Virus record (IMG/VR): IMGVR_UViG_3300034063_001181
Coordinates: 1-24,778 of that record
Length of the DNA: 24,778 nucleotides
Origin: a virus
Reading direction: 5' to 3' (one strand)
Under the pieces are notes generated by a model. It was given only the letters and a program-made list of their open reading frames with translations, was not told the DNA's origin and did not search any database. Numbering within the stretch: the stretch's first letter is position 1; every line of letters starts with the position of its first letter. Below, piece after piece: positions 6,887-24,778 of the stretch. A program made the translations under genes and the position numbers.

Positions 6887-8238
6887 TATGGTCCTCTAGG
6901 TGGAAATATGATTGCAGCAGGATTTGCTCTAATTTTTCCGTCAACACTGGTATTTAAACCTTTAAAAATATTAATTCCAACACCACCGGGTAAATTAAAT
7001 ATTCCCGGTTGAGGTTGAGATGGCGGAGGGGTTGAAAACTTACCAGTGCCTGAACCTAATACGCTTCCTAATACTCCAGACGCAATAGTGTATCCAACTG
7101 GACCTAGTTTTCCTATTCCCTTTTTGTTAACTGCATTTTTTGCTAAAATCGCTGCCAGTTGACCAAGAGGACTCATAGGAGGCTGTCCCCCCATCATTCC
7201 ATATTGCCTTGAAGAAACATTTCCAAATCGTGCACCGGAACCTCGATAACTTCCGCCACTGTTAAAAGAATCAAAAGCACCACGTGCTCCATAAGTTGTT
7301 TGATTTGCAAAACTAAATGGTGCTTTTCCGCCCACAGTTCCGAATATTCTCTGTTTGCCTGACAAATCAAATAACGATTCATTAGGAAATGACTGTTCCA
7401 CTGGTGTTCTTTGTGCATTGGCCAATGTACCCAATCTGCTAGTCGGCGATGTTGCAGCAGAATTACTTTTGTTTCCTGCAATTTGTAACGGACTTGGGTT
7501 CTGATCATAAAAGTATGGAGTCCATCCTAAATTACTATCTCCCATTACTTTTCCTTCTCTATAGAAAACATTCTCGTATGCAACTGTCATTCTATTTTGT
7601 AATATTTTTGTACTATCAGATGAACTTACTGCGTCGTGAGCCCACTCAGTAAGTTTAGGATTTACTAATGTATATTCAGTGAATTTTTGTTGGTGTAATA
7701 CATACAATTTAATAGAATCTAAAAAGTTATCTATCGGCCTTGCATATCTACCATAGGAGTAATCAATACTGCCGTATTTTGTATCTTTATAAGCAGGTAT
7801 TGCATCATTAGATGGGCCATAATTAGAATCAGCGTAAAAATGTTTATAATAGTGTACCCAAAGATTGTGAGTAATATTACTGGAATCGTCGTGAAAATCA
7901 ATACTGATAGGACTATAAGTTAATTTTGTTTGCACTACTGTTTTTCTATTGTATTGATTTAACGTTTCAGTGGCAATTGAAAATTTAGGAAGATCGACTC
8001 TCTTGGCTAACAGTCCTACTTGATAAAATTCTTCCTGTGCTTTCCAATGAGATTCAATAATTGCATCTGGATTGATGTTTATTTGAACAAAATATATAAA
8101 ACCAAATTTTGGAATTCTAGCATAAGAACTATCAATAAACAATCTTCCAGCATGTTGGTAATCTCGTAAAATTACTTGTTTACCGTCAACGCGAAAAGTA
8201 TTTGAACCGGATAAAAAATTTAAAAATGCAGCGCTCAT
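6886..8238 (-). CDS. Tail-tube-fold baseplate protein, gp54/gp48-like tube initiator
   Basis: The first 240 residues resemble the tail-tube fold: LLAKRVDLPKFSIATETLNQ (about 93-112) leads into YNRKTVVQTKLTYSPISIDF and then the HDDSSNITHNLWVHYYKHFY stretch, which pair a long strand-turn-strand with an acidic loop as in gp19, gp48 and gp54. The C-terminal 200 residues are Gly/Ser/Pro-rich and low in complexity. In T4, gp48 and gp54 cap the baseplate and start tube growth; this 450-residue protein probably does the same, but I cannot tell which of the two it replaces. A terminator (8254-8284) and a late box (8244-8251) lie directly ahead, with the predicted transcription start on the A of the ATG. 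Confidence 0.8.
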   Translation of the reverse strand: MSAAFLNFLSGSNTFRVDGKQVILRDYQHAGRLFIDSSYARIPKFGFIYFVQININPDAIIESHWKAQEEFYQVGLLAKRVDLPKFSIATETLNQYNRKTVVQTKLTYSPISIDFHDDSSNITHNLWVHYYKHFYADSNYGPSNDAIPAYKDTKYGSIDYSYGRYARPIDNFLDSIKLYVLHQQKFTEYTLVNPKLTEWAHDAVSSSDSTKILQNRMTVAYENVFYREGKVMGDSNLGWTPYFYDQNPSPLQIAGNKSNSAATSPTSRLGTLANAQRTPVEQSFPNESLFDLSGKQRIFGTVGGKAPFSFANQTTYGARGAFDSFNSGGSYRGSGARFGNVSSRQYGMMGGQPPMSPLGQLAAILAKNAVNKKGIGKLGPVGYTIASGVLGSVLGSGTGKFSTPPPSQPQPGIFNLPGGVGINIFKGLNTSVDGKIRANPAAIIFPPRGP

Positions 8239-8243
8239 GACTG

Positions 8244-8251
8244 TATTTAGT
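8244..8251 (-). promoter_or_regulatory. Late promoter box ACTAAATA before the tube-initiator-like gene
   Basis: The box follows directly on the T-run of the gp19 terminator. With T4 spacing transcription starts at 8238, which is the first base of the ATG, giving a leaderless message. The same CTAAATA form precedes gp18 and gp13. Confidence 0.6.
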
Positions 8252-8253
8252 TC

Positions 8254-8284
8254 AAAAAAAAGCCTGGATTTTACTCCAGGCTTT
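8254..8284 (-). terminator. Factor-independent terminator after gp19
   Basis: Positions 8259-8268 and 8275-8284 form a perfect 10-bp stem around a six-base loop. On the minus strand the stem is followed by an uninterrupted run of T (8260-8254). It insulates gp19, an abundantly made protein, from the baseplate gene downstream. Confidence 0.95.
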
Positions 8285-8300
8285 AAAGAAACAATATAAA

Positions 8301-8951
8301 TTAACCGCCAGTTGCTAGGCCCTGCGCCTGAGGTGGTCTTACTGTTCTTCCTACTTCTAATCCAATACCTATCGCTCCACCGCCAGGGGCTTCTAGTTGG
8401 ATTGCATTATCGTAACAAATTGTTAGTGCAATATCCATAGGATCACTGCTTGAATAATCACCTTGCTGGTAAGTGGCTTGCTTAATCCAACAACCCAAAT
8501 ATTCAAAACTTTCTAATGTTACTGGTTCATATGCGCCGTTGCCGCCGTCGAGAATTTCTACACGCATTCTGAACTTATAATCGACTGCACTTGCAGCACC
8601 ACTTTGTTCGAAGAAATCAAATTGTTTCTGTAGTTGCTCGCCCACTTTTCTTGTAACTACACCGCTAGCATCATCTCTTAGTGTTAGTTTTGCATCTTGC
8701 CATGTATGTCTACCTAAAATCTTAACTGTACTGTTATAAACAGGCAACTTAACTTCATCGAACGAAACATCAGGCCGTGTTACGTTCATGACTTGCTTGG
8801 TTAATTCAGTAGTTGGATTACTTGCTACACCAAATTGATCTAAAGTTACTCTAAATCTATATTTTAGTTTTGGCATTAACATACCTTGAGTGGTTGCGGC
8901 CTGAGTTCCACTCAAAGGTACTGTAAATCTATTTAAACTTGCGATTGGCAT
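8301..8951 (-). CDS. 19: Tail tube protein gp19
   Basis: The major protein of the inner tail tube. The 216 residues include LMPKLKYRFRVTLDQFG (about 25-41), VTRPDVSFDEVKLPVYNSTV (about 53-72), KILGRHTWQDAKLTLRDDAS and a C-terminal LESFEYLGCWIKQATYQQGDY segment, all typical of T4-family tube proteins. T4 gp19 has 163 residues, so this one is longer, mainly in extra N- and C-terminal Gly-rich ends. AAGGAG at 8959-8964 sits seven bases before the ATG, and a TAAATA box at 8972-8979 predicts a short leader that just includes it. It follows gp18 and ends in a strong terminator. Confidence 0.95.
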   Translation of the reverse strand: MPIASLNRFTVPLSGTQAATTQGMLMPKLKYRFRVTLDQFGVASNPTTELTKQVMNVTRPDVSFDEVKLPVYNSTVKILGRHTWQDAKLTLRDDASGVVTRKVGEQLQKQFDFFEQSGAASAVDYKFRMRVEILDGGNGAYEPVTLESFEYLGCWIKQATYQQGDYSSSDPMDIALTICYDNAIQLEAPGGGAIGIGLEVGRTVRPPQAQGLATGG

Positions 8952-8971
8952 TATAATGCTCCTTGTTCTTT

Positions 8972-8979
8972 TATTTACC
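8972..8979 (-). promoter_or_regulatory. Late-like promoter box GGTAAATA for gp19
   Basis: It lies just after the gp18 stop codon. The predicted start near 8966 gives a 15-nt leader that begins immediately before the AAGGAG at 8959-8964. The two leading G are non-consensus. Confidence 0.4.
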
Positions 8980-8981
8980 TT

Positions 8982-11951
8982 TTATAGTCCGGCTGCAATA
9001 TCGCCAGTATTTTTCAATCTCAATGGAATATAGATATATTCAACTGCTTTAACTGGTTCAATAGCAATGTCGACATAAAGTTCATTACGATCAATTCTTG
9101 CAGGTGTGTTATTAGTTTCATCGCAGACTACGATAAAGTCATATAAAGCACGTTGACCTACTAACTCAAGCATAATGCTTTCTGCTGCTGCTTTAATTTC
9201 TCTACGTGTTTGTACATCATTTGGCTCAAACAAGAATGGACGAGCCATAATGTCTAATTGTCTACGTAGGAAACAAACTAAACGAGAAACGTTAATTCTA
9301 TCTAATGCACTGGCATTTCTTGCACGAGTTCTTTGACCGTATGCTAAAATTCCAACGCCTGTTAAGGTTGCGATTGGATTGATTTTGACATCGTCAAGTA
9401 CATCTCTTAGACTTTGATGTAACGCAACGGATCTAAATTCGCCTTCGTCTGTGATATAACCTACAGAAGTTGCATTATCAACGCCACCGCGTCTTGTTCC
9501 TGCTGGAGCAAACCATGGGAAACTCTTTGCATCGCTGTTGATAATTGTTCGTAGCATCATATGACTTGGTGGAACAACAATATTGTTTCCGGTATTGTCA
9601 TTAGTAAATCCGCTTGGGTAATACATTGCCATATATTCGTCAAAACTTACGGCACCAACATCGTTATTATCTAAAGCACCGTTTGTATTATTACCCCACT
9701 CACTTAGTGCTGTGCCTGATGGTTGTAATCTAAATGGTGTATCACCTACAACAAATGCAGTTAATCCGCGATCTGTATTAAATGCAATCATGTTCTGAAT
9801 TGCTTCAGGATATCCAGGAGTTGCAAGTAAGTTAAATGTTAATGTATCAGTATCTCTAATTGCAGTATTTGAATCCAATGTTTCTTTGAATGCATTAACT
9901 ACCTGTGCTCTTTGTGCGTGACGTCCAAACTGAGGACCTCCATCTGCTGCAACAGGATACTGACTTACCCAACGATCTGTTTCATAAGTTGCCATCGATT
10001 GGTTACTAAATCTAGTGTTTAATCCGTTATTTGCAGAAGTATTAATGTACCCTACAACATATTTCTTAACATTAAATCCGCTTCTTCTGGTGTTCCAGAG
10101 TCTCATGCCTCTTGGATATAACGCAGGATCTGGTGCATCTGGGTCTAAATAGCCGCTACTTAGTAGATCTTTAATAGCCGAAGGATCCTTTGATGAACCT
10201 GCTGTTGCCCATCGAGCATCTGCAAACAACCATCCAGTAGGTGTTGACTGATCTGTTACATCTTGTAATACCCACTTACTTCCAACTGAGATTGTGCTGT
10301 CATAGACATATACATCTCGACCGTAGTTTTCGAGATCAGCAGTGCTTACCCAAATATCGCCTGTAACTAATGGTGTACCGTCACTTTGTGTTGTTGGCTC
10401 TGTTGCACTTACAATAGGTCCGTTTGGATCACTGTCAGGGAACGATGATTTATATCCAACCCATGTTGTTCCGTTATGATACATAATGTCAACTTCGTCG
10501 ACAACAGAACTATACCATAAACGACCATCTGCAGGATCAGTTTCTGGTTGAGTTGCTTTTGCTTCGTATACTAATGGTTTCCAATTTGAAATTAAATAAT
10601 CGTAACCGGTATAACCAGTAGGTGCAGCGTATACGTTCGGGGTACCTTGTTGAGTTGTTGTATTATAGACTACAAATCCCATTGCAGCCAACGGTGTATT
10701 TGTTACATCTTCTAAAAGAATGTTTCCACCTTTGGTGTGTGTGATAGTTAATCTATTTGTGTCAGCATCCCAATCAGCAGTAACGTTTGGTACATTGGTA
10801 GAACTTATTGCTGCTGGAATCAAGGAACCAATTTTTACTGTTGATCCTGTTGCCGAAAGATTAATTGTTTGCACTGAACTCCAACTTTCAGTTCCAGAAT
10901 CACTAGTTCGAATTCTAAAACTATAAGATCCGTCACTGTTATTTGCTGTTGTTTCTAAAGTAACCACTGTTTCGCCGGCTGCAGACTTTCTCCATAATCT
11001 AAAGTTTGCTGTTTCGCTAGTAGCATCTTCAGTATTGTAATCTACAAATAAACTACCAACAGCAGCATTTTTGCCTCCGCCTGTAGAATCATAATATTTG
11101 TTTGCAGCATTTACACCATTTAACAGTGGTGCAGGAACTGTGGTCCACTCTTGTGTTGATCCGTTGTAATACTTAACTACCCAATTTGCTCCATTCGATG
11201 CAGTGGTTGTTGTAATCCATGTACTTCCTGTAGCGGTAGATGCATCAAATGTAGGATATGAATAATGTGCAGAAATTGTTAATCGTTTTCCAGAATCATA
11301 TGTGTTAACTAGAGGATCCCAGGTGTTTGAATTATTTTTTCTATAAATTATGTTATTTGTCGCAGTCGAATAAGAAGTTACGATTGCATAATCACCTTTG
11401 CTACCTAAATTAGTAGATGGAGCGATTCCACTAAAACTTGAATCAGGAGAATCGTCATTTAATACAATAGGAGTTTTTACAGTAAATTTCTGTGTTGAAC
11501 TAGACCACTCTTTGATACCAAAAGTAGATGCACCTGTATCAAGCCAATATGTTCCGGAAACTGGATCTCCAGAAGGAATATTACTTGTAGGAACTAGGCT
11601 TGCTAAATCAAGATCGGCTCTAACAATATATGCTCGAGAACTTAGTCCTAAAGTACTATATGCTGCCTGTAGTCCGTATTCGTTAAGTTCGCTTCCATGT
11701 TGCGGATTTCCGCTAGCATCTGTATAGAATACAGGGGTTCCGAATGTGTCAGTTAAATCTCGCTGACTTGTAATTAACCAAACTTTTCCAGCATTTGCCT
11801 GTGTAGTACCTTGTGCTACAGTACCGCTTGGATTAACTTTGTCTTGTGCAGAGGCCACAAAAATCATCGGAACAGTTCCCGGTGCTGCGGGTGTATAAAA
11901 ACTTTCGTCGATGACTTGTACTTGTACGCCTGGTGATTCCAATGTTGCCAT
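8982..11951 (-). CDS. 18: Tail sheath protein gp18 with large decorated insertion
   Basis: The contractile sheath subunit. I start it at the ATG at 11951 (MATLESPGVQVQVIDESFYT), not at an upstream in-frame ATG, because AAGGAG lies at 11961-11966. The C-terminal 380 residues are the conserved sheath core: LYPRGMRLWNTRRSGFNVKK, AYGQRTRARNASALDRINVS, RPFLFEPNDVQTRREIKAA and the closing strands. At 989 residues it is much longer than T4 gp18 (659). The extra length is mostly a Ser/Thr/Asn-rich region from about 100 to 600 containing repeated short modules of the type WYSS...DIMYHNGTTWVGYK, which probably form domains on the sheath surface. Its own late promoter and leader fit high expression. Confidence 0.96.
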   Translation of the reverse strand: MATLESPGVQVQVIDESFYTPAAPGTVPMIFVASAQDKVNPSGTVAQGTTQANAGKVWLITSQRDLTDTFGTPVFYTDASGNPQHGSELNEYGLQAAYSTLGLSSRAYIVRADLDLASLVPTSNIPSGDPVSGTYWLDTGASTFGIKEWSSSTQKFTVKTPIVLNDDSPDSSFSGIAPSTNLGSKGDYAIVTSYSTATNNIIYRKNNSNTWDPLVNTYDSGKRLTISAHYSYPTFDASTATGSTWITTTTASNGANWVVKYYNGSTQEWTTVPAPLLNGVNAANKYYDSTGGGKNAAVGSLFVDYNTEDATSETANFRLWRKSAAGETVVTLETTANNSDGSYSFRIRTSDSGTESWSSVQTINLSATGSTVKIGSLIPAAISSTNVPNVTADWDADTNRLTITHTKGGNILLEDVTNTPLAAMGFVVYNTTTQQGTPNVYAAPTGYTGYDYLISNWKPLVYEAKATQPETDPADGRLWYSSVVDEVDIMYHNGTTWVGYKSSFPDSDPNGPIVSATEPTTQSDGTPLVTGDIWVSTADLENYGRDVYVYDSTISVGSKWVLQDVTDQSTPTGWLFADARWATAGSSKDPSAIKDLLSSGYLDPDAPDPALYPRGMRLWNTRRSGFNVKKYVVGYINTSANNGLNTRFSNQSMATYETDRWVSQYPVAADGGPQFGRHAQRAQVVNAFKETLDSNTAIRDTDTLTFNLLATPGYPEAIQNMIAFNTDRGLTAFVVGDTPFRLQPSGTALSEWGNNTNGALDNNDVGAVSFDEYMAMYYPSGFTNDNTGNNIVVPPSHMMLRTIINSDAKSFPWFAPAGTRRGGVDNATSVGYITDEGEFRSVALHQSLRDVLDDVKINPIATLTGVGILAYGQRTRARNASALDRINVSRLVCFLRRQLDIMARPFLFEPNDVQTRREIKAAAESIMLELVGQRALYDFIVVCDETNNTPARIDRNELYVDIAIEPVKAVEYIYIPLRLKNTGDIAAGL

Positions 11952-16533: not shown

Positions 16534-16955
16534 AAGAAATTATATGCAGTGGCGGGTTATTTTTAGCCAAAGACACTAAAAGATTTTTATTTTTAAACAG
16601 AACTCAAGGAAAGACTGCGGAAACTTGGGGACTTGTCGGCGGTAAAAGAGAACCCAATGACTCAACAATTATTGATACATTAAAAAGAGAATTCAATGAA
16701 GAGATAGGAAAAGTCTCTGGAATAAAGAAAATAATTCCTTTAGAATTATTTACTAGCAATGATCAGAATTTTCAATACAGCACTTATGTAATAATTGTTG
16801 ATAAAGAATTTCAGCCTCAACTAAATTATGAACATTCTGGATACGCTTGGTGTTCATATTCCCACTGGCCAAAGCCGTTACACCAAGGATTAAAAACCAG
16901 TTTTTCAAATAAAATTATTAAGGCTAAATTAGAATTATTATTAGATTTAATTTAA
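16515..16955 (+). CDS. Nudix hydrolase
   Basis: Nudix enzymes cleave nucleoside diphosphates linked to another moiety; in phages they are thought to clear oxidised or signalling nucleotides or act on NAD- or RNA-cap-type substrates. The 146 residues include WGLVGGKREPNDS (about 36-48) and the catalytic helix LKREFNEEIGKV (about 55-66), i.e. the REUxEExGU core. The spacing from the GG to REF is one residue longer than the standard Nudix box, and Asp stands near the usual first Glu. The C-terminal HSGYAWCSYSHWPKPLHQGL is typical of phage Nudix proteins. It overlaps gp15 by 19 bp, and its 3' end overlaps the convergent glycosyltransferase by 9 bp. The substrate cannot be told from sequence. Confidence 0.88.
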   Translation: METGTIKEIICSGGLFLAKDTKRFLFLNRTQGKTAETWGLVGGKREPNDSTIIDTLKREFNEEIGKVSGIKKIIPLELFTSNDQNFQYSTYVIIVDKEFQPQLNYEHSGYAWCSYSHWPKPLHQGLKTSFSNKIIKAKLELLLDLI

Positions 16956-17600
16956 ATCTTTTTGACTAAATGCGTAACTTCCGAGATGCCTTAGTTCCAC
17001 ACTTAATGAAGTGTCGACTTTTATTTTGTAGCCTAGATTATTAATTTTTTTGCAAAGGTTCATATCTTCGCCTAAAAAATCATTAGTTTCCGGACTCCAT
17101 GTAAATTCAAACCAAGGTTTAGGAATTTTCTTAAATATTTCGGTTTTCATTAACACACAACCCATTCCTATTCCTTCGACTTCTACCAATTCATTTTGAA
17201 TTGAAAAATCTAATGGATTGTCCCAATCACCTATTTTACTATATGCTACCCCTTTTGAAGGGAACTGTCGCCTAACATAATTTGCAGCCACTATAGGTTC
17301 ATTATGTGCCATAAGTCTTGCAGCAGTAGTAGCAGGGAAAGTAATGTCACTATCTAACCATAGCATATATTCAGCATTTAAATTTAATGCCAAATTTGCT
17401 AAAGTTTCTCTTTGCTGCAATAAAATTGTACTAAGATCCATAAACACATGAGTGTCAATGTTATTCATAGTATTAAATTTTACTAATTCTGTTAGGCACA
17501 TTGCATGTGCAGAATGTAAAGTATCTCTTGCAGGGATGCAAACTGCAAGTTTACTTTTCTTTAAACTCCACTGTGTGGAAGAAAAAACTGATTGTTTCAT
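16947..17600 (-). CDS. GT-A-fold glycosyltransferase (GT2-like)
   Basis: It probably transfers a sugar from a nucleotide-sugar in the cytoplasm. The Rossmann-type start KLAVCIPARDTLHSAHAMC (about 17-35) is followed by YMLWLDSDITFP (about 78-89), with the metal-binding DSD at 83-85, VAANYVRR (about 104-111), a Gly-rich GIGMGCVLM and FLGEDMNLCKKI with the likely catalytic GED at 177-179. At 217 residues it is a minimal catalytic domain without membrane segments. It is coupled to the upstream 156-aa gene by ATGA overlap. The acceptor is unknown; host lipopolysaccharide, phage fibre or modified DNA are possible. Confidence 0.85.
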   Translation of the reverse strand: MKQSVFSSTQWSLKKSKLAVCIPARDTLHSAHAMCLTELVKFNTMNNIDTHVFMDLSTILLQQRETLANLALNLNAEYMLWLDSDITFPATTAARLMAHNEPIVAANYVRRQFPSKGVAYSKIGDWDNPLDFSIQNELVEVEGIGMGCVLMKTEIFKKIPKPWFEFTWSPETNDFLGEDMNLCKKINNLGYKIKVDTSLSVELRHLGSYAFSQKDLN

Positions 17601-18073: not shown

Positions 18074-18304
18074 TCAATATGTAAAAGGATATGCTCTACC
18101 ACCGAATTTAGCACTGAAACTAAATTGTGTGCCAGCCGATTGGCTAATACCGTATGTAGCGTTAGCACCCAATACTGCGCTTAATTTAATATTTTGGCCT
18201 CCGCTAGGAGCGTCGCCGGCAGCACCAGGTGCATAGTTTGTGTAGGCTTGGTTTACTCTTCCAAACGATATTTGAGTACCTGTTGCTGGTAAATTTCCTG
18301 GCAT
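18074..18304 (-). CDS. 76-aa small structural-type protein
   Basis: The 76 residues start MPGNLPATGTQISFGRVNQA and are rich in Gly, Ala, Ser and Asn with few charges. The TGTQISFGRVN phrase resembles the short β-repeat (SGxISLGDVN) found in phage tail-fibre and tail-tip proteins. Late boxes at 18331-18342 and its position directly after the S74 fibre gene support a small virion protein, perhaps a fibre tip or accessory piece. No enzyme motif is present. Confidence 0.75.
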   Translation of the reverse strand: MPGNLPATGTQISFGRVNQAYTNYAPGAAGDAPSGGQNIKLSAVLGANATYGISQSAGTQFSFSAKFGGRAYPFTY

Positions 18305-18330: not shown

Positions 18331-18342
18331 TATTTATTTATT
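18331..18342 (-). promoter_or_regulatory. Two overlapping late boxes AATAAATA for the 76-aa gene
   Basis: Two copies overlap with a 4-base shift (18331-18338 and 18335-18342), giving predicted starts near 18325 and 18329 and leaders of about 21-25 nt. The boxes lie over the 3' end of the S74 fibre gene. Confidence 0.45.
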
Positions 18343-19188
18343 AATTGTAATTTCTAAAATCTTTTTTTCAAGATCCTTAATCTGTTTTTGTTGTTCTTTA
18401 ATTGCTTCAACTAATAAGGGAATTAATTTTTCATATTGAACAGTTTTATAATTTTCACCCGAAATACTATTACCATTTTCGTCTATATCAAAGGGGGCAG
18501 GCCGAACCGCTTCAGGTAAAACTGATTCTACTTCATCAGCAAATAGTCCCACTAATTTTGAAGACTTCTTATAACCATATTTTTCTGCTAAGTCGTTAGG
18601 TGTGTAGGTAATTCCTGATAATTTTTTAACTTTAGTTATGGGATCTTCTATAACTTTTACATTTTCTTTTAACCTTCGATCTGAGTAAAATGCAGTAATT
18701 TCATTAGTTGCAACAATTTCACCAGTAACGTGTAATGCAACTGCAGGACTTGTATTTCCTATACCTACCTTTCCGTCGTGTCCAATATAAATTCTGGTTT
18801 TACTACCAGATACATATGAATCAGTTGTTGCAATATACATCTTAGTGCCATAAGTACCGTCACTGCGCACATATATGCCTGCTTGTGCATTTGTTCCGTC
18901 GCTACCATCGCTTGCTCCCCAAGTGATTGCACTACCAAAATTGTCAGTAGTTACACCGGGATCTAAATGTAGACCACCCAATGTTAACCCCGGTGTAGTT
19001 TCGTTCCAGTTTGCCGAATTTCCTTCTACATAAAGTTGCGGTGCGCTAATTCTAGTCAAAGTTCTAGAAGCACCTGCTCCAGATAGCGTCATAAAATCAA
19101 GAAAGTTTTGATTTAATTCTGCATGAGTCAAGGCGGATGTTTTATATCCGTCTGCTCCAGCATTTGTACTTCTTAGTGTTACAGCCAT
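18334..19188 (-). CDS. Short tail fibre/spike with C-terminal S74 autoprocessing domain
   Basis: A likely receptor-binding or fibre protein of 284 residues. The start MAVTLRSTNAGADGYKTSAL, then the phrase THAELNQNFLDF, is a common attachment-type N-terminus of marine phage fibres. The middle (about 45-160) is β-rich, ending in IYIGHDGKVGIGNTSPAVAL. The C-terminal domain (about 168-275) is peptidase S74, an intramolecular chaperone that assists trimer folding and then cuts itself off: SDRRLKENV supplies the Ser169/Lys174 dyad, followed by LSGITYTPNDLAEKYGY, LVGLFADEVESVLPEAV and a terminal helix EQQKQIKDLEKKI. Cleavage is expected just before Ser169. AGGA precedes the ATG and a late box lies at 19207-19214. 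Confidence 0.92.
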   Translation of the reverse strand: MAVTLRSTNAGADGYKTSALTHAELNQNFLDFMTLSGAGASRTLTRISAPQLYVEGNSANWNETTPGLTLGGLHLDPGVTTDNFGSAITWGASDGSDGTNAQAGIYVRSDGTYGTKMYIATTDSYVSGSKTRIYIGHDGKVGIGNTSPAVALHVTGEIVATNEITAFYSDRRLKENVKVIEDPITKVKKLSGITYTPNDLAEKYGYKKSSKLVGLFADEVESVLPEAVRPAPFDIDENGNSISGENYKTVQYEKLIPLLVEAIKEQQKQIKDLEKKILEITINK

Positions 19189-19224: not shown

Positions 19225-19905
19225 TTAAAAAACGGTCCTAACATCGTTAATAGTTTTATACACCGTTTTCCATTTTTCAGAATAATCGCAATTTTCTGTT
19301 TCTTTAAAATACGGTCCGCCATTTGTATAGTGTATTAATTTTGGAATATTTGCAGTTTGATTTTGATTTTCGACTAAAAAATTCCACTCTAAAGGTAAAC
19401 TTCCTATTTCAAATTCAGAATCTAGCCACTTAAATTGATGCAAATCTAAACCTGCGGCTTTTTCAACATAGTCTAGAGTCAATTTTTTACATTTTTTATT
19501 GTTAAAAAACATTACGCTAGACCAATTTTTTTTATCATATTGAAATTGATTTGAGTTTAAAAACTTTTTTCCTGCTTGACAAACTTGATTGTGTTTAACA
19601 CACATGACAGAATATTTTTCATCTATTAAATCAAATAATTCTTTTATGTCGTGATCTACAATTATGTCATTATCTAAAAATAATGTCCAACCTTCATAAT
19701 TATAAAGATGCGGAACTAAAAATCTAGATATACTAAAATCTGTACTTTCTTTTTCTGTTTTCAATCTTGTAAATTCCCTAAGCATGTCTCTGTGCAAGAA
19801 CATAAAATTTACACTAACAGAACTTTTTTGCATAATGCTTTCTGCCAAAACATATGCAGGCATCCTGTTGTTCCTATCATAACCAATACAGATATTGTAT
19901 TTCAT
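19225..19905 (-). CDS. Glycosyltransferase, GT8-like
   Basis: The start MKYNICIGYDRNNRMPAYVLAESIMQ is like the nucleotide-binding strand of GT8-type transferases (IYIGYD...AxxVLxxSI). The metal-binding motif GWTLFLDNDIIV (about 72-83, DND at 78-80) follows; WSSVMFFNNKKC (about 128-139) and the terminal HYTNGGPYF (His192) correspond to the acceptor and metal-binding C-terminal motifs. At 226 residues it is a single domain with no membrane anchor. Its ATG overlaps the methyltransferase stop by 4 bp, so the two are coupled. Sugar and acceptor are unknown. Confidence 0.85.
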   Translation of the reverse strand: MKYNICIGYDRNNRMPAYVLAESIMQKSSVSVNFMFLHRDMLREFTRLKTEKESTDFSISRFLVPHLYNYEGWTLFLDNDIIVDHDIKELFDLIDEKYSVMCVKHNQVCQAGKKFLNSNQFQYDKKNWSSVMFFNNKKCKKLTLDYVEKAAGLDLHQFKWLDSEFEIGSLPLEWNFLVENQNQTANIPKLIHYTNGGPYFKETENCDYSEKWKTVYKTINDVRTVF

Positions 19906-20468
19906 TTTTTAGTTAAACCTAATATATCAAATTCTGGATCAGTGGGTATTGTGTACCTTATGTGAACTATTCGTTTTGTATCGTAAAATTTCTTACATCT
20001 GTTATTCCACCACTCTGGAGATTTTACTAGCACATGTGCGTTTTCACCGTTTGGTAATTTCTTTTTTGCCAGACCGCAAGAGATAACAAGGAAAACAAAT
20101 TTTTTTGCTTTAGAAAAAATAGTTTCTAGTGTTTCGTCAATTATTTCTTCTGGAACATGTTCTAAAACGTCTGTGCTGATTACTCCATCAAATACTCCTT
20201 CTGGTAACACTTCGTATTCTTTTACACCTATATCATAAAAACTTACATTTTCATTTTCTATCCCAAACATTTTATTAATTGGTTCGGGTTTTTTATAATG
20301 CATGGCTTTTCCGCAACCAAAATCTAAAATTGTTTTTGATTTTGTTTTTTCAACTAATAGTTTTAATGTATCTACATATTCAAACTTAAATGATCCGCCT
20401 TGGAAATTTCCGCTGTAATGCATTTTTTGATAATGATCTTTGTATTTTTCAAAAATTTCGTTATTCAT
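19902..20468 (-). CDS. SAM-dependent methyltransferase, class I
   Basis: Motif I ILDFGCGKAMHY at about 47-58 binds S-adenosylmethionine, and motif FDGVISTDVLEHVPEE at about 93-108 is the usual post-II segment of small-molecule or sugar-type methyltransferases. The N-terminus YQKMHYSGNFQGGSF is like that of phage and surface-polysaccharide methyltransferases. The 188 residues make one Rossmann-like domain. Both ends overlap their neighbours by 4 bp, placing it in one operon with the GT29-like/radical-SAM protein and the GT8-like enzyme. It may methylate a sugar or sugar-modified target; the substrate is not shown. Confidence 0.88.
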   Translation of the reverse strand: MNNEIFEKYKDHYQKMHYSGNFQGGSFKFEYVDTLKLLVEKTKSKTILDFGCGKAMHYKKPEPINKMFGIENENVSFYDIGVKEYEVLPEGVFDGVISTDVLEHVPEEIIDETLETIFSKAKKFVFLVISCGLAKKKLPNGENAHVLVKSPEWWNNRCKKFYDTKRIVHIRYTIPTDPEFDILGLTKK

Positions 20469-21988
20469 AGTTTCTTCTTTATTGGTTTTATAGGTTTTGA
20501 ACTAAATGTGCAAGTTCTGCAAGGATCCATTTGTCTAACTCCTTTTAGAATATGCCTTCTATATTTTCTTAACTCTGGAGAAAGTAAATAATTCGTAAAC
20601 GATCTATCATAGATCGTGCCAAATAATTTATTTTTCTTCCAATCGTCGCAACAAATCAAATATGATCCGTCGCATTCTATCATCATCTTTTGAAATAGTT
20701 TATGGCAGTAATTGTATTTGATAACGCTTTCTGTTGGACCGTTTAATACACCAACTCTATTAGTAAAATCTGTAATTTCAAACCACTGTTTAGTGTTGTC
20801 AATTTCTCTAATTGTTGCATTTGGACTATTTTTAATTATTTCTAATAATTCTGATTTATTTTTATTGTTGTCGTCTTTATAACTGTCATAAACTATTCTA
20901 GAAAACAAAGGAATTAAATGCCTATACTTATAGAGTAAAGCACCGTTAGTTAAAATTTGAAGATTTAACACATCTCTATTTTCTGCTAGTAGTAATACAA
21001 TTTCTTCAAAATCTTTATGAACAGTTGCTTCTCCTTTTCCTGAAAGACTAACAGTCACTTTACTTTTTCTTGATTCGACAAACTCTCGAGATCGTTCAAT
21101 AAATTTTTTTACTGTATCTACGGTCATAGATGCATAGTCATTTACATAATCATCAGAACCTATAGGACAAAATGTACATCGTAAATTACAGGCATTGGTT
21201 AAATTTAAATTAATAACTCTAATGTTTTGAATAATTTCTTGGTCTTTTTCTTTTTTCTTTTGTAATTTTTTGGCTATAGATCCAAATTTGACCATAGTGT
21301 ATATTCGTTTTTTATCTGAATTATTAATCTTTATCCAATTTAATTTTGCTTCTTCAATATATTTTTTTACAAGTGTTTCCTCAAAAGATCCGTTATGAAC
21401 CATTACTTCAGATCCCACTGATGGAGTATGCCACGAAGAAGGCATCAATGAATTGTCATTTACTGGATAATCGACTAGGCTTTTAAAAAAATCAAAACCA
21501 ATAATATCTAATGATTTTTGAGTTTTAATTTTTTCTAAAAGGAAAAATATTGTCCACATACCACCAGAAAATCTAAAAGATTTTTTACTGTTGTTTATAA
21601 TTCCATATTTTTCATAAAACTGAAGAATTTCTTCGTCTGAAAAAATTGGAGTATACTCATATTCTTTAATAGTCTTTTCTAACCAACCATCAGTTACATC
21701 AATCCTTGATCCATTTAATAAAATAAGTTTATTTTTCAATTTTTCTTGAATCTCTGGCTCTTGCAATAGACCAATTCTAAACAGTCCAGAAATCCAAACA
21801 TCTACTTTTTTGCCAACAGCAATTTCGTCTTCGGGAGTAGTTTTAATTCCTCGCCCTAATCGTATTACAACATCAAATGAATCAATCAAGTCGGCATATT
21901 GTCCGGTCATAATTTCAACCGAATTTCCAACTATTAAAACACGTTTGTCTTTAAAAAATTCTTGTATTTCTTCAATTGGTTTAAACAT
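20465..21988 (-). CDS. Fusion: GT29 sialyltransferase-like domain plus radical-SAM/SPASM-like enzyme
   Basis: A 507-residue two-domain protein; I start at the ATG at 21988, which overlaps the previous stop by 8 bp, rather than at the in-frame TTG at 22000. The N-terminal half resembles sialyltransferases: KRVLIVGNS...DSFDVVIRLGRG (about 15-47, sialylmotif L), FRFSGGMWTIFFLLEK...IIGFDFF (about 138-168, motif S) and VHNGSFEE (about 197-204, His...Glu). The second half starts at about 256 with LNLTNACNLRCTFCP (Cys267, 271, 274: CxxxCxxC for the 4Fe-4S cluster) and GKGEATVHKD. It ends with YCHKLFQ...IECDGSYLICCDDW and CRTC, an auxiliary-cluster SPASM-like tail. No frameshift lies between the halves. 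The reaction is unknown; a modified glycan is a guess. Confidence 0.88.
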   Translation of the reverse strand: MFKPIEEIQEFFKDKRVLIVGNSVEIMTGQYADLIDSFDVVIRLGRGIKTTPEDEIAVGKKVDVWISGLFRIGLLQEPEIQEKLKNKLILLNGSRIDVTDGWLEKTIKEYEYTPIFSDEEILQFYEKYGIINNSKKSFRFSGGMWTIFFLLEKIKTQKSLDIIGFDFFKSLVDYPVNDNSLMPSSWHTPSVGSEVMVHNGSFEETLVKKYIEEAKLNWIKINNSDKKRIYTMVKFGSIAKKLQKKKEKDQEIIQNIRVINLNLTNACNLRCTFCPIGSDDYVNDYASMTVDTVKKFIERSREFVESRKSKVTVSLSGKGEATVHKDFEEIVLLLAENRDVLNLQILTNGALLYKYRHLIPLFSRIVYDSYKDDNNKNKSELLEIIKNSPNATIREIDNTKQWFEITDFTNRVGVLNGPTESVIKYNYCHKLFQKMMIECDGSYLICCDDWKKNKLFGTIYDRSFTNYLLSPELRKYRRHILKGVRQMDPCRTCTFSSKPIKPIKKKL

Positions 21989-22898
21989 TGTTATTTGCAA
22001 CTATTTTAGCTTTTGGAGGGTTAAAATAAATGTTTTTATATCGTTCTCTTTTTGCATTTATGTATTCTAAATACTTTAAAAGTTTTTCTTTCCAATCTGT
22101 TTCAATTTCAGGAAAAAACATTCCACTCCTATGATCATTAAAAGTTTTGTTTACCCATGTCATTGGAAAATCTTCAAAAAACAAAAATTTGTTAATATGA
22201 TAAAAACTAGCGATTGGAGTTTTTTGATATGAATCTATTGGCTCGATATATTTTCCAAGTGCAACCCCATATACTGCACTTTCGGACAACATAGATGTAT
22301 ATACTACTTTGCTATCTTTTAAAATAGAATATAAATTTGCCTGTCTATGTAATACATTTAATTCTCCAAAGATATCTGTAATTTCACCAACAACTTTAAA
22401 TGTAGTTAACGGATGGGGTTTAACCCATAAATTATCACCGTAAAGTTTTTTTATATATTTTAATTTTTCAAAACTTACTCTATCGGCAATTTTATTAGAA
22501 CCGGGCAATACAATCAGTGCTTGTCGTGCTTCTTTTGAGTGCTCACCAATATTTAGGTATTTATTTGACTTATTTTCAATAACTCTGTTGGAAAAATATT
22601 TTATAAAATCGACTTTTATTTCTGTATCAGTACTGTGATATGCATCAAGCATTTGCTGGTGTCTTAATTCTAATTGTAATGGATGTACTGTGACTCCTCC
22701 TGCATATTCTGTGTATTGTAAAGTTCTAAAATTTGGTAATTCAGAAGCAATGATATCATAATCTAATTTAAATTCGTATTTTCTTTCTTGGCAAAGTTGA
22801 TGCAAATACATTTCAAATTCATTGGTATTAAGATTTGGGGATTTTATCATAAAAACCAATTTTCTTTTACTTTCCACAGGGTCATTCATCTTCATCAT
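21981..22898 (-). CDS. GT-B-like transferase of surface-polysaccharide type
   Basis: This 305-residue protein shows the second-half signature of GT-B-fold capsule and sialic-acid-type transferases: QALIVLPGSNK (about 126-136), LYGDNLWVKPHPLTTF (about 152-167) with the HP motif, then YTSMLSESAVYGVALGK (about 200-216), the donor-binding SE...A..G.. loop. The first 120 residues show no motif I know. It overlaps the fusion gene by 8 bp and starts 15 bp after the stop of the repeat-protein gene, so it belongs to the same likely operon. The family assignment is moderate; polysialyl-, KpsC- and CDP-glycerol-type transferases share these motifs. Confidence 0.72.
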   Translation of the reverse strand: MMKMNDPVESKRKLVFMIKSPNLNTNEFEMYLHQLCQERKYEFKLDYDIIASELPNFRTLQYTEYAGGVTVHPLQLELRHQQMLDAYHSTDTEIKVDFIKYFSNRVIENKSNKYLNIGEHSKEARQALIVLPGSNKIADRVSFEKLKYIKKLYGDNLWVKPHPLTTFKVVGEITDIFGELNVLHRQANLYSILKDSKVVYTSMLSESAVYGVALGKYIEPIDSYQKTPIASFYHINKFLFFEDFPMTWVNKTFNDHRSGMFFPEIETDWKEKLLKYLEYINAKRERYKNIYFNPPKAKIVANNNV

Positions 22899-22913: not shown

Positions 22914-24778
22914 TTATAAATAGAAATCTGTTTCGTAATCGGTGGTAACTGAAGTTGTTTCATTAATATTTGTTATATAAACCGTATTTTCTTCATATAC
23001 AGTATTAGCAAAGGTCGATTCTTCGTACGCCGTTGTTTCATCGTATACTGTATTTTCATTATAAATTGTAGTATCTAAATAGTTGGTAACTGCAACTGTG
23101 TTTTCATCTATAGAAGTTGTTTCGTCATAAACTGTATTTTCGGTATAGTTTGTAGTATCTAGATAGTTAGTTGTTACCACAATGTTTGTATTTACTACCG
23201 TTGTTTCATCATAGGCCGTATTTTCTGAGTAGTTTGTAGTTGCAATAACGGCTGTAGTTTCGTCATAAACTGTATTTTCGGCATAATTGGTTACCGCAAT
23301 AATATTGGTTGTTTCATCAACTGCCGATGTTTCGTCATAAACTGTAACTTCTGAGTAGTTTGTGGTTGCAATAACGGCTGTAGTTTCGTCATAAACTGTA
23401 TTTTCGGCATAATTAGTTACCGCAATAATGTTAGTTGTCTCATCAACTGCTGATATTTCGTCATAGACGGTGTTGACTTGATAGTTTGTAGTCACAGCAG
23501 TATTTTCGTCGTAAACTGTGCCTTCATTATAGACCGTTGTATCTAAATAATTTGTTGTGGCTCCAACGTTAGTTGTCTCATCATACACCGTGGTGTCATT
23601 GTAACTGGTTACTGCAATAATATTGGTTGTTTCATCAACGGCTGATATTTCATCGTAGACTGTGTTGACCTGATAATTTGTAGTTACCGCAGAGTTTTCT
23701 TCAAACGCAGTGACTTCGTCATAGATAGTCGTATCTAAGTAGTTTGTAGTTACTCCAATATTAGTTGTTTCATCGTATACTGTAGTATCGTTATAATTGG
23801 TAATTGCAATAATGTTAGTTGTCTCATCAACTGCTGATGTTTCATCGTAGACTGTGTTGACCTGATAATTTGTAACTACAATTGTGTTTTCATCATAGGC
23901 TGTAGTTTCATCGTAAACTGTATTAACTTGATAATTTGTAATTACAACGGTGGTCTCATCGTAGACTGTGCCTTCGTCATAGACAGTTGTATCTAAGTAA
24001 TTTGTTGTAGCAGCAATATTGGTTGTTTCGTTATAAACAGTCGTATCATTATAACTGGTAATTGCGATAATGTTTGTTGTTTCATCGACGGCCGATGTTT
24101 CGTCATAGACTGTGTTGACCTGATAATTTGTGGTTACAGCAGAGTTTTCTTCAAATGCAGTGACTTCATCATAGACAGTATTGACTTGATAGTTTGTAGT
24201 TACTCCAATATTGGTTGTTTCATCATATACTGTAGTGTCGTTATAATTGGTAATTGCAATAATATTAGTTGTTTCATCAACGGCTGATGTTTCGTCATAG
24301 ACTGTGTTGACCTGATAATTTGTAGTTACCGCAGAATTTTCATCAACAGTTGTTGTTTCATCATAAACTGTGTTGACCTGATAATTTGTAGTTACCGCAG
24401 AATTTTCTTCAAATGCCGTAACTTCGTCATAGGCAGTCGTATCTAAGTAGTTTGTCGTTGCTCCAACGTTAGTTGTCTCATCGTAGACAGTTGTATCGTT
24501 ATAACTTGTTACCGCAATGATATTGGTTGTCTCATCAACTGCTGATGTTTCGTCATAGACAGTATTAACCTGATAGTTTGTGGTTACAGCAGAGTTTTCA
24601 TCTATGATTGTTGTTTCGTTATAAGCCGTTGTATCTAAATAATTTGTAGTTACTCCAACGTTAGTTGTCTCATCGTAGACAGTTGTATCGTTATAACTTG
24701 TTACCGCAATGATATTGGTTGTCTCATCAACTGCTGATGTTTCGTCATAGACAGTATTAACCTGATAGTTTGTGGTTA
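22914..24778 (-). CDS. 3' part of a giant low-complexity repeat protein (Thr/Asn/Tyr/Asp/Glu/Val)
   Basis: The frame is open from the window edge to the TAA at 22914, 621 codons, with no start inside; an internal GTG at 23588 is only a Val within the repeats. It is built from variants of TTNYxxNTVYDETT and AVDETTNIIAVT. Reading every codon I find only A, D, E, F, G, I, L, N, Q, S, T, V and Y: no Lys, Arg, His, Cys, Trp, Pro or Met. It is therefore strongly acidic, likely β-rich and uncleavable by trypsin. The final 30 residues (NTVYEENTVYITNINETTSV...DFYL) are degenerate and form the C-terminus. No known domain fits; a fibre, whisker or surface-coat protein is possible. It is followed after 15 bp by the glycosyltransferase operon. 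Confidence 0.85.
   Translation of the reverse strand, partial: TTNYQVNTVYDETSAVDETTNIIAVTSYNDTTVYDETTNVGVTTNYLDTTAYNETTIIDENSAVTTNYQVNTVYDETSAVDETTNIIAVTSYNDTTVYDETTNVGATTNYLDTTAYDEVTAFEENSAVTTNYQVNTVYDETTTVDENSAVTTNYQVNTVYDETSAVDETTNIIAITNYNDTTVYDETTNIGVTTNYQVNTVYDEVTAFEENSAVTTNYQVNTVYDETSAVDETTNIIAITSYNDTTVYNETTNIAATTNYLDTTVYDEGTVYDETTVVITNYQVNTVYDETTAYDENTIVVTNYQVNTVYDETSAVDETTNIIAITNYNDTTVYDETTNIGVTTNYLDTTIYDEVTAFEENSAVTTNYQVNTVYDEISAVDETTNIIAVTSYNDTTVYDETTNVGATTNYLDTTVYNEGTVYDENTAVTTNYQVNTVYDEISAVDETTNIIAVTNYAENTVYDETTAVIATTNYSEVTVYDETSAVDETTNIIAVTNYAENTVYDETTAVIATTNYSENTAYDETTVVNTNIVVTTNYLDTTNYTENTVYDETTSIDENTVAVTNYLDTTIYNENTVYDETTAYEESTFANTVYEENTVYITNINETTSVTTDYETDFYL
23317..24778 (-). 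repeat. Higher-order coding repeat array, spacing 126 + n x 66 nt
   Basis: The DNA anchor tcaac(t/g)g(c)(c/t)gat (codons for AVDE, third-position variants; tcgacg at one site) begins at 23317, 23443, 23635, 23827, 24085, 24277, 24535 and 24727. Intervals are 126, 192, 192, 258, 192, 258 and 192 nt. All differ by 66 nt (22 codons), so the array grows or shrinks by a 22-residue module of the type NSAVTTNYQVNTVYDExxxx. Confidence 0.88.
24461..24778 (-). repeat. Exact direct repeat of at least 126 bp, period 192 bp
   Basis: Positions 24461-24586 are identical base for base to 24653-24778; the second copy runs off the window edge, so the true length is unknown. Identity at third codon positions, in contrast to the drifted older copies at lower coordinates, points to a recent duplication or gene conversion. 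Confidence 0.95.

Follow-up and report, generated by a model that had tools for sequence, protein, structure and literature searches.

The stretch of viral DNA analysed here, which we call the window, is the whole linear IMG/VR record IMGVR_UViG_3300034063_001181 (24,778 bases), and it ends inside a long repeat protein. We confirm that the repeat ORF encodes a real protein under selection. We also lean, with modest confidence, towards reading this protein as a structural component of the fibre locus of a large T4-like phage: a beta-prone chain organised on a register of threonines, and the acidic variant of an undescribed class. This reading draws on what can be observed directly, namely the reading frame, the selection acting on it, the grammar of its repeats, a conserved locus in which a fibre end is followed by the repeat protein and the partner gene, and a C-terminal signature.

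The window contains structural genes, including terminase, tail tube, a 1006-aa sheath, a sheath stabiliser and an S74 tail-fibre protein, and its source is a large T4-like myovirus. Over two thirds of its length, the sheath shares 47-48% identity with its counterparts in the jumbo phages Atu_ph07 and Phosso. At the other end of the window, a 33-bp tandem repeat (696-764) within the ORF at 164-2359 encodes a Pro/Ala/Glu-rich linker.

The reading frame and its composition

A six-frame check of the repeat region finds a single open frame of 620 codons, on the minus strand (22914-24776), while the other frames contain 17-88 stops. The original prediction had the coordinates right, and the strand is minus. 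The frame is open to the contig edge; that is, we see the C-terminal 620 residues, ending in TTDYETDFYL, and the N-terminus lies past the edge. The translation of this sole open frame uses 13 residue types (T157 V80 N77 Y64 E59 D53 A42 I36 S22 Q10 L8 G7 F5) and, as had been claimed, lacks Lys, Arg, His, Cys, Trp, Pro and Met throughout. Its 112 acidic residues (Asp+Glu, 18%) are accompanied by no basic ones, and the claim that it has no trypsin site is likewise borne out for the visible part.

A second record, IMGVR_UViG_3300002835_011140, is identical to the window base for base across 14,482 nt and lengthens the repeat frame by 25 codons, again without Lys, Arg or His. Since the two records may stem from related samples, this confirmation is only partly independent. 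All contigs with the acidic array end inside it, and the array is visible without basic residues over at least 645 residues. Because trypsin would leave the acidic form uncut over that length, routine virion proteomics would miss the protein.

In order to assess selection on the frame, we compared repeat copies by codon position. Copies at a lag of 150 aa differ at 27, 29 and 141 sites in codon positions 1, 2 and 3, respectively (p=7e-29), and copies at a lag of 64 aa at 33, 37 and 131 (p=1e-20). The compared segments were picked by DNA identity at fixed lags, so the test is not biased toward the frame. The repeats of two relatives described below, L003 and L004, likewise diverge mostly at codon position 3. 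Divergence concentrated in this way indicates purifying selection on the reading frame, and it argues against both an artefact and a repeat that matters only as DNA.

Repeat grammar, relatives and the broad class

Six residues, x-T-x-(Y/I/V/W)-x-(E/V/A), make up the basic unit of the protein, and some 4-residue units are interspersed. Self-identity of the window protein is 0.35 at lag 6, compared with 0.02 at lag 2 and 0.03 at lag 3, and further high peaks occur at even lags. The 64-residue period reported originally does exist, but as a superperiod, like that of 150 aa, rather than as the basic unit. Using a parser that permits units of 4 to 8 residues and mildly favours 6 and 4, we count 97 units of six residues and 15 of four in the window phage, 100 and 9 in L003, and 38 and 6 in L004. 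Thr fills position 2 in 246 of the roughly 270 units, and position 4 almost always carries Tyr, Ile, Val, Trp, Ala, Leu or Phe; Tyr or Trp occupies about half of the large-residue positions. The protein is beta-prone by composition, and this property, combined with the even register, would place Thr and the large residue on the same face of an extended strand.

The fraction of successive T-x-large-residue motifs separated by 4 or 6 residues is 0.61 in the window protein versus 0.13 when shuffled, 0.85 in L003 and 0.71 in L004. Scanning with a degenerate pattern for alternating T-x-(Y/F) retrieves many further phage proteins, some longer than 1,700 aa (e.g. STSTVFDTTTTFVTSFETTYITTF). For this broad class the fraction of gaps of 4 or 6 is 0.66-0.93, and for the acidic family 0.61-0.85; their shuffles give 0.12-0.18, and four control proteins from fibres and sheaths 0.00-0.05. 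Retrieval of the broad class used a period-4 pattern of 17 residues, which locally favours gap 4; gap 6 and the remainder of each protein were unselected by it, and phage DLP6 entered through another domain. In DLP6, L228 and L241 the Thr-register stretch forms the tail of a baseplate wedge protein. The class includes phrog_30374 and KVP40.0254, and those of its members that are annotated are listed by PHROGs under unknown function.

L003 and L004 are two more IMG/VR phages that carry the acidic form, and only in them is the N-terminus seen, whereas the second contig takes the window's own frame upstream by its 25 codons. Their proteins begin with a short aromatic peptide, MRF(G/A)FW-x-L-x-x-W-x-T..., and the repeats start within about 20 residues; the N-terminal wedge domain is absent from both. 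The claim of a protein without positive residues applies to the visible part of the window protein and does not extend to these relatives, which have Arg or Lys in the N-terminal peptide and, in addition, Trp in the repeats. A fibre gene lies upstream in both relatives, while the window ends inside the array: in L004 the repeat start codon overlaps the fibre stop (ATGA), and in L003 the repeat ORF starts about 11 nt past the fibre gene.

The acidic form appears to have few members. A scan for the MRF(A/G)FW motif returned L003 and L004 alone, exact-peptide and degenerate scans of IMG/VR gave no additional acidic members, and the genome collection search confirmed none. No homolog was found in Atu_ph07, Phosso or the metagenomic LR756508, by a profile search of all three in full and an ORF scan of part of the last two. 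The only tblastn match of the repeats in GenBank phages, in phiRM10, lies antisense to a hexapeptide-repeat gene and was rejected, and a synthetic Thr/aromatic tblastn query gave no matches, probably through masking. PDB sequence searches returned no significant match, the phrog_30374 profile does not match the window protein, and its sole PHROG match, phrog_18915, is weak (E 2.4e-5) and falls inside low-complexity repeats. The original view that the protein belongs to no named family holds insofar as no Pfam family exceeds threshold, but the protein does not stand alone, since it shares relatives, grammar, locus and C-terminus with others.

The C-termini of the closest-locus members are TDFYL (window), TDFYV (L214), TNYYM (L203), TSYYVS (L223) and TSYYF (L289), which gives a common signature T-x-(F/Y)-Y-(L/V/M/F). 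Among the 25,948 positions examined in Thr-register ORFs, the tripeptide (F/Y)Y(L/V/M/F) turns up just 9 times. L003 and L203 also have in common a Y-V-x-x-G-Y-x-x-A-G-Y insert (47.6% identity over 21 aa); an insert of the YVDSGYVAAGYV type breaks the repeats in L003 (around 9165-9225) and in the L203 repeat ORF. The repeat grammar by itself is insufficient to establish common descent, as it can converge. From the shared locus, termini and insert, however, we infer that the window protein and the broad class descend from a common ancestor, so that the former would be the acidic outlier in a widespread, as yet undescribed, class of phage proteins built on a Thr register.

The partner gene and its locus

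Directly downstream of the window repeat ORF, after a gap of about 16 nt, lies a 305-aa gene (21981-22898, minus strand) of the phrog_26179 family, which we refer to as the partner gene. Relatives of its product in L203 (48% identity), L289 (37.5%), L223 (36%) and L214 (34%) are each encoded directly after a Thr-register ORF; in all, a partner-family gene comes right after Thr-register proteins in ten loci besides the window. A partner HMM built from these sequences and run against 10,296 ORFs (3.7 Mb) added L216, L230, L217, L195, L211 and L311, all directly after Thr-register ORFs; its sole other match was in Cr30, where the upstream ORF is short and Thr/Tyr-rich. In the reverse test, cultured phages were picked by their partner gene only. 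About 200 nt upstream of that gene, a Thr-register ORF is present in KVP40, VS2, D479 and D527; Quill_5.2 has a weaker upstream one by a looser criterion, and DLP6 has the partner gene without an adjoining Thr-register ORF. A Fisher test of the association gives p=6e-28; this value is inflated and serves purely as a description, since the loci had been retrieved on account of one of the two genes and some of them are relatives of each other. The pair spans T4-like, podovirus and jumbo-phage-like contigs.

The fibre C-terminal domain of L003 and L004 also precedes Thr-register ORFs in L203 (47%) and L214 (40%), and in Quill_5.2 the Thr-register gene comes after a fibre gene. In the vibriophages, which are schizotequatroviruses, the pair is found close to queC and genes for nicotinamide metabolism rather than beside annotated tail genes. 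Both genes of the KVP40 pair (L313 3106-4774, KVP40.0254 to KVP40.0256) are annotated as hypothetical.

The family alignment of the partner shows invariant K-x-H-P and S-E motifs, which we take to recall GT-B transferases of capsule synthesis. Since the partner matches nothing in Pfam, NCBIfam or PDB, it is by this likeness of motifs that we read its product as possibly a GT-B-like sugar transferase. Capsule_synth and polysialyltransferase models were also tried and do not match the window.

The neighbouring window genes, all on the minus strand, are a two-domain gene (20465-22000), a weakly matching methyltransferase (19902-20468), a glycosyltransferase family 8-like gene (19225-19905), the tail-fibre gene with its Peptidase_S74 chaperone domain (18334-19188) and an Anp1-like glycosyltransferase (16947-17600). 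The two-domain gene joins a VLIVGNSVE-type N-terminal domain, which has no Pfam match and which we judge to be sialyltransferase-like, to a radical SAM/SPASM enzyme. L223 has relatives of both this enzyme and the family 8 gene; there, the counterparts of the two domains are separate neighbouring genes, downstream of the partner gene. Adjoining the window fibre gene is a small 76-aa protein (18074-18304, minus strand) with a 49% homolog in L294. Beside the L003 fibre genes, L071 encodes a 1311-aa protein (7920-11855, minus strand) with several apparent glycosyltransferase-like segments, whose end resembles the window Anp1-like gene (34%).

Proposed role and comparison with known systems

In the structural reading that we favour, a Thr followed two residues later by a large residue, every six (sometimes four) residues, would line up Thr and Tyr/Ile/Val/Trp on one strand face. 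The chain may be anchored to the virion close to the fibre by its short aromatic end or ends, forming a beta-structured, probably oligomeric filament that could serve in adhesion or as a surface shield; the partner product may modify it, perhaps by glycosylating the Thr row. A virion location is suggested by the adjacency of the fibre gene and by DLP6, L228 and L241, in which the Thr-register stretch is joined to a baseplate wedge domain. More broadly, and only as a tentative possibility, the pair might be a two-gene module carried by unrelated phage groups, in which a Thr-register beta filament is served by a dedicated Thr-row transferase and some variants have lost their basic residues to become all-acidic.

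AlphaFold2 reaches no confident fold for the window protein, with a mean pLDDT of 26 (alignment of segments) or 33 (single sequence). These values leave a simple monomeric solenoid without support; an oligomeric assembly would account for the failure of a single-chain prediction, although the failure is itself no proof of one. The left-handed hexapeptide pattern is [LIV]-[GAED]-X2-[STAV]-X, and the unit fits it in register, provided that aromatics are allowed at the first position. We nevertheless consider a single-chain beta-solenoid, whether a left-handed hexapeptide helix or similar, to be improbable, because 4-residue units are frequent, about half of the large-residue positions hold Tyr or Trp, and neither a Pfam hexapeptide profile nor the predicted fold matches. 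The lack of a confident fold would also suit a disordered, mucin-like glycan carrier, that is, an unfolded Thr scaffold coated with sugars by the partner and the neighbouring transferases to form a hydrophilic coat; the Thr-rich chain is in keeping with it, as are several nearby genes that resemble glycosyltransferases, both in the window and in L223. We find this rather unlikely, since a disordered scaffold has no need of strict even spacing, of 6/4 units or of constant Tyr/Ile/Val/Trp under purifying selection, and the protein is not Pro- or Gly-rich.

The schizotequatrovirus pair near queC and nicotinamide genes means that a host-directed role may exist, for example as an anti-defence or surface-blocking protein that acts outside the virion and is modified by the partner enzyme. 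The 6E351A region numbered 0314-0326 has been named an anti-defence island (PMC12028318), in a numbering that may differ from the GenBank tags p0314-p0326; the virion proteomics of 6E351A in that study relied on trypsin, and the 6E351A protein MYOV011v1_p0320 does have Lys/Arg. That the window protein is such a factor is unlikely, given that the gene comes after a fibre gene in L003, L004, L203, L214 and Quill_5.2, and that in DLP6, L228 and L241 a baseplate wedge protein carries the same repeat as its tail. Finally, the high acidity, the absence of basic residues and the scarcity of close sequence relatives in IMG/VR would fit an acidic polymer that binds cations or acts as an adhesive and is independent of the Thr-register class; we regard this as very improbable, because locus, partner gene, C-terminal signature and insert are all common to that class.

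If the scaffold is a fibre, it would add a repeat design based on a Thr register instead of known fibre folds. Gene families of unknown function travel together, and cultured phages, KVP40 and Quill_5.2 among them, make the pair testable. Among the papers searched, nothing relevant turned up about phage fibres that are Thr-rich or built from hexapeptides. As an analogue we considered the hair-like whiskers on the tail of phage CBB (PMC5259590), to which we found no sequence link.

Among known systems, left-handed beta-helix repeats resemble the window protein in being hexapeptides with a small residue or Thr and a large residue two apart, but differ from it in their core positions, which in the window are aromatic, and in lacking its 4-residue units. 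The phrog_30374 proteins (KVP40.0254, AAQ64323.1, 'hypothetical protein'; 6E35.1a, 'putative cell wall mannoprotein') share with it a T-x-large motif every 4 or 6 residues and a downstream partner gene; unlike it, they are about 200 aa long, with their own N-terminal domain and with Lys/Arg in the repeats. The baseplate wedge protein of Stenotrophomonas phage DLP6 (AMQ65900.1; L308 12049-15915) has a 573-aa C-terminal tail of the same grammar, of which we found no mention in the DLP6 paper (PMC5349666) for the terms searched; this tail differs in being fused to a wedge domain and in having Arg and Lys. The 574-aa Thr-register protein of L203 is linked to the window by the similarity of its partner and C-terminus, and to L003 and L004 by its upstream fibre domain and, in the case of L003, by its insert, yet it contains about 10% K/R/H and is built from STTTTWNTSK-type repeats.
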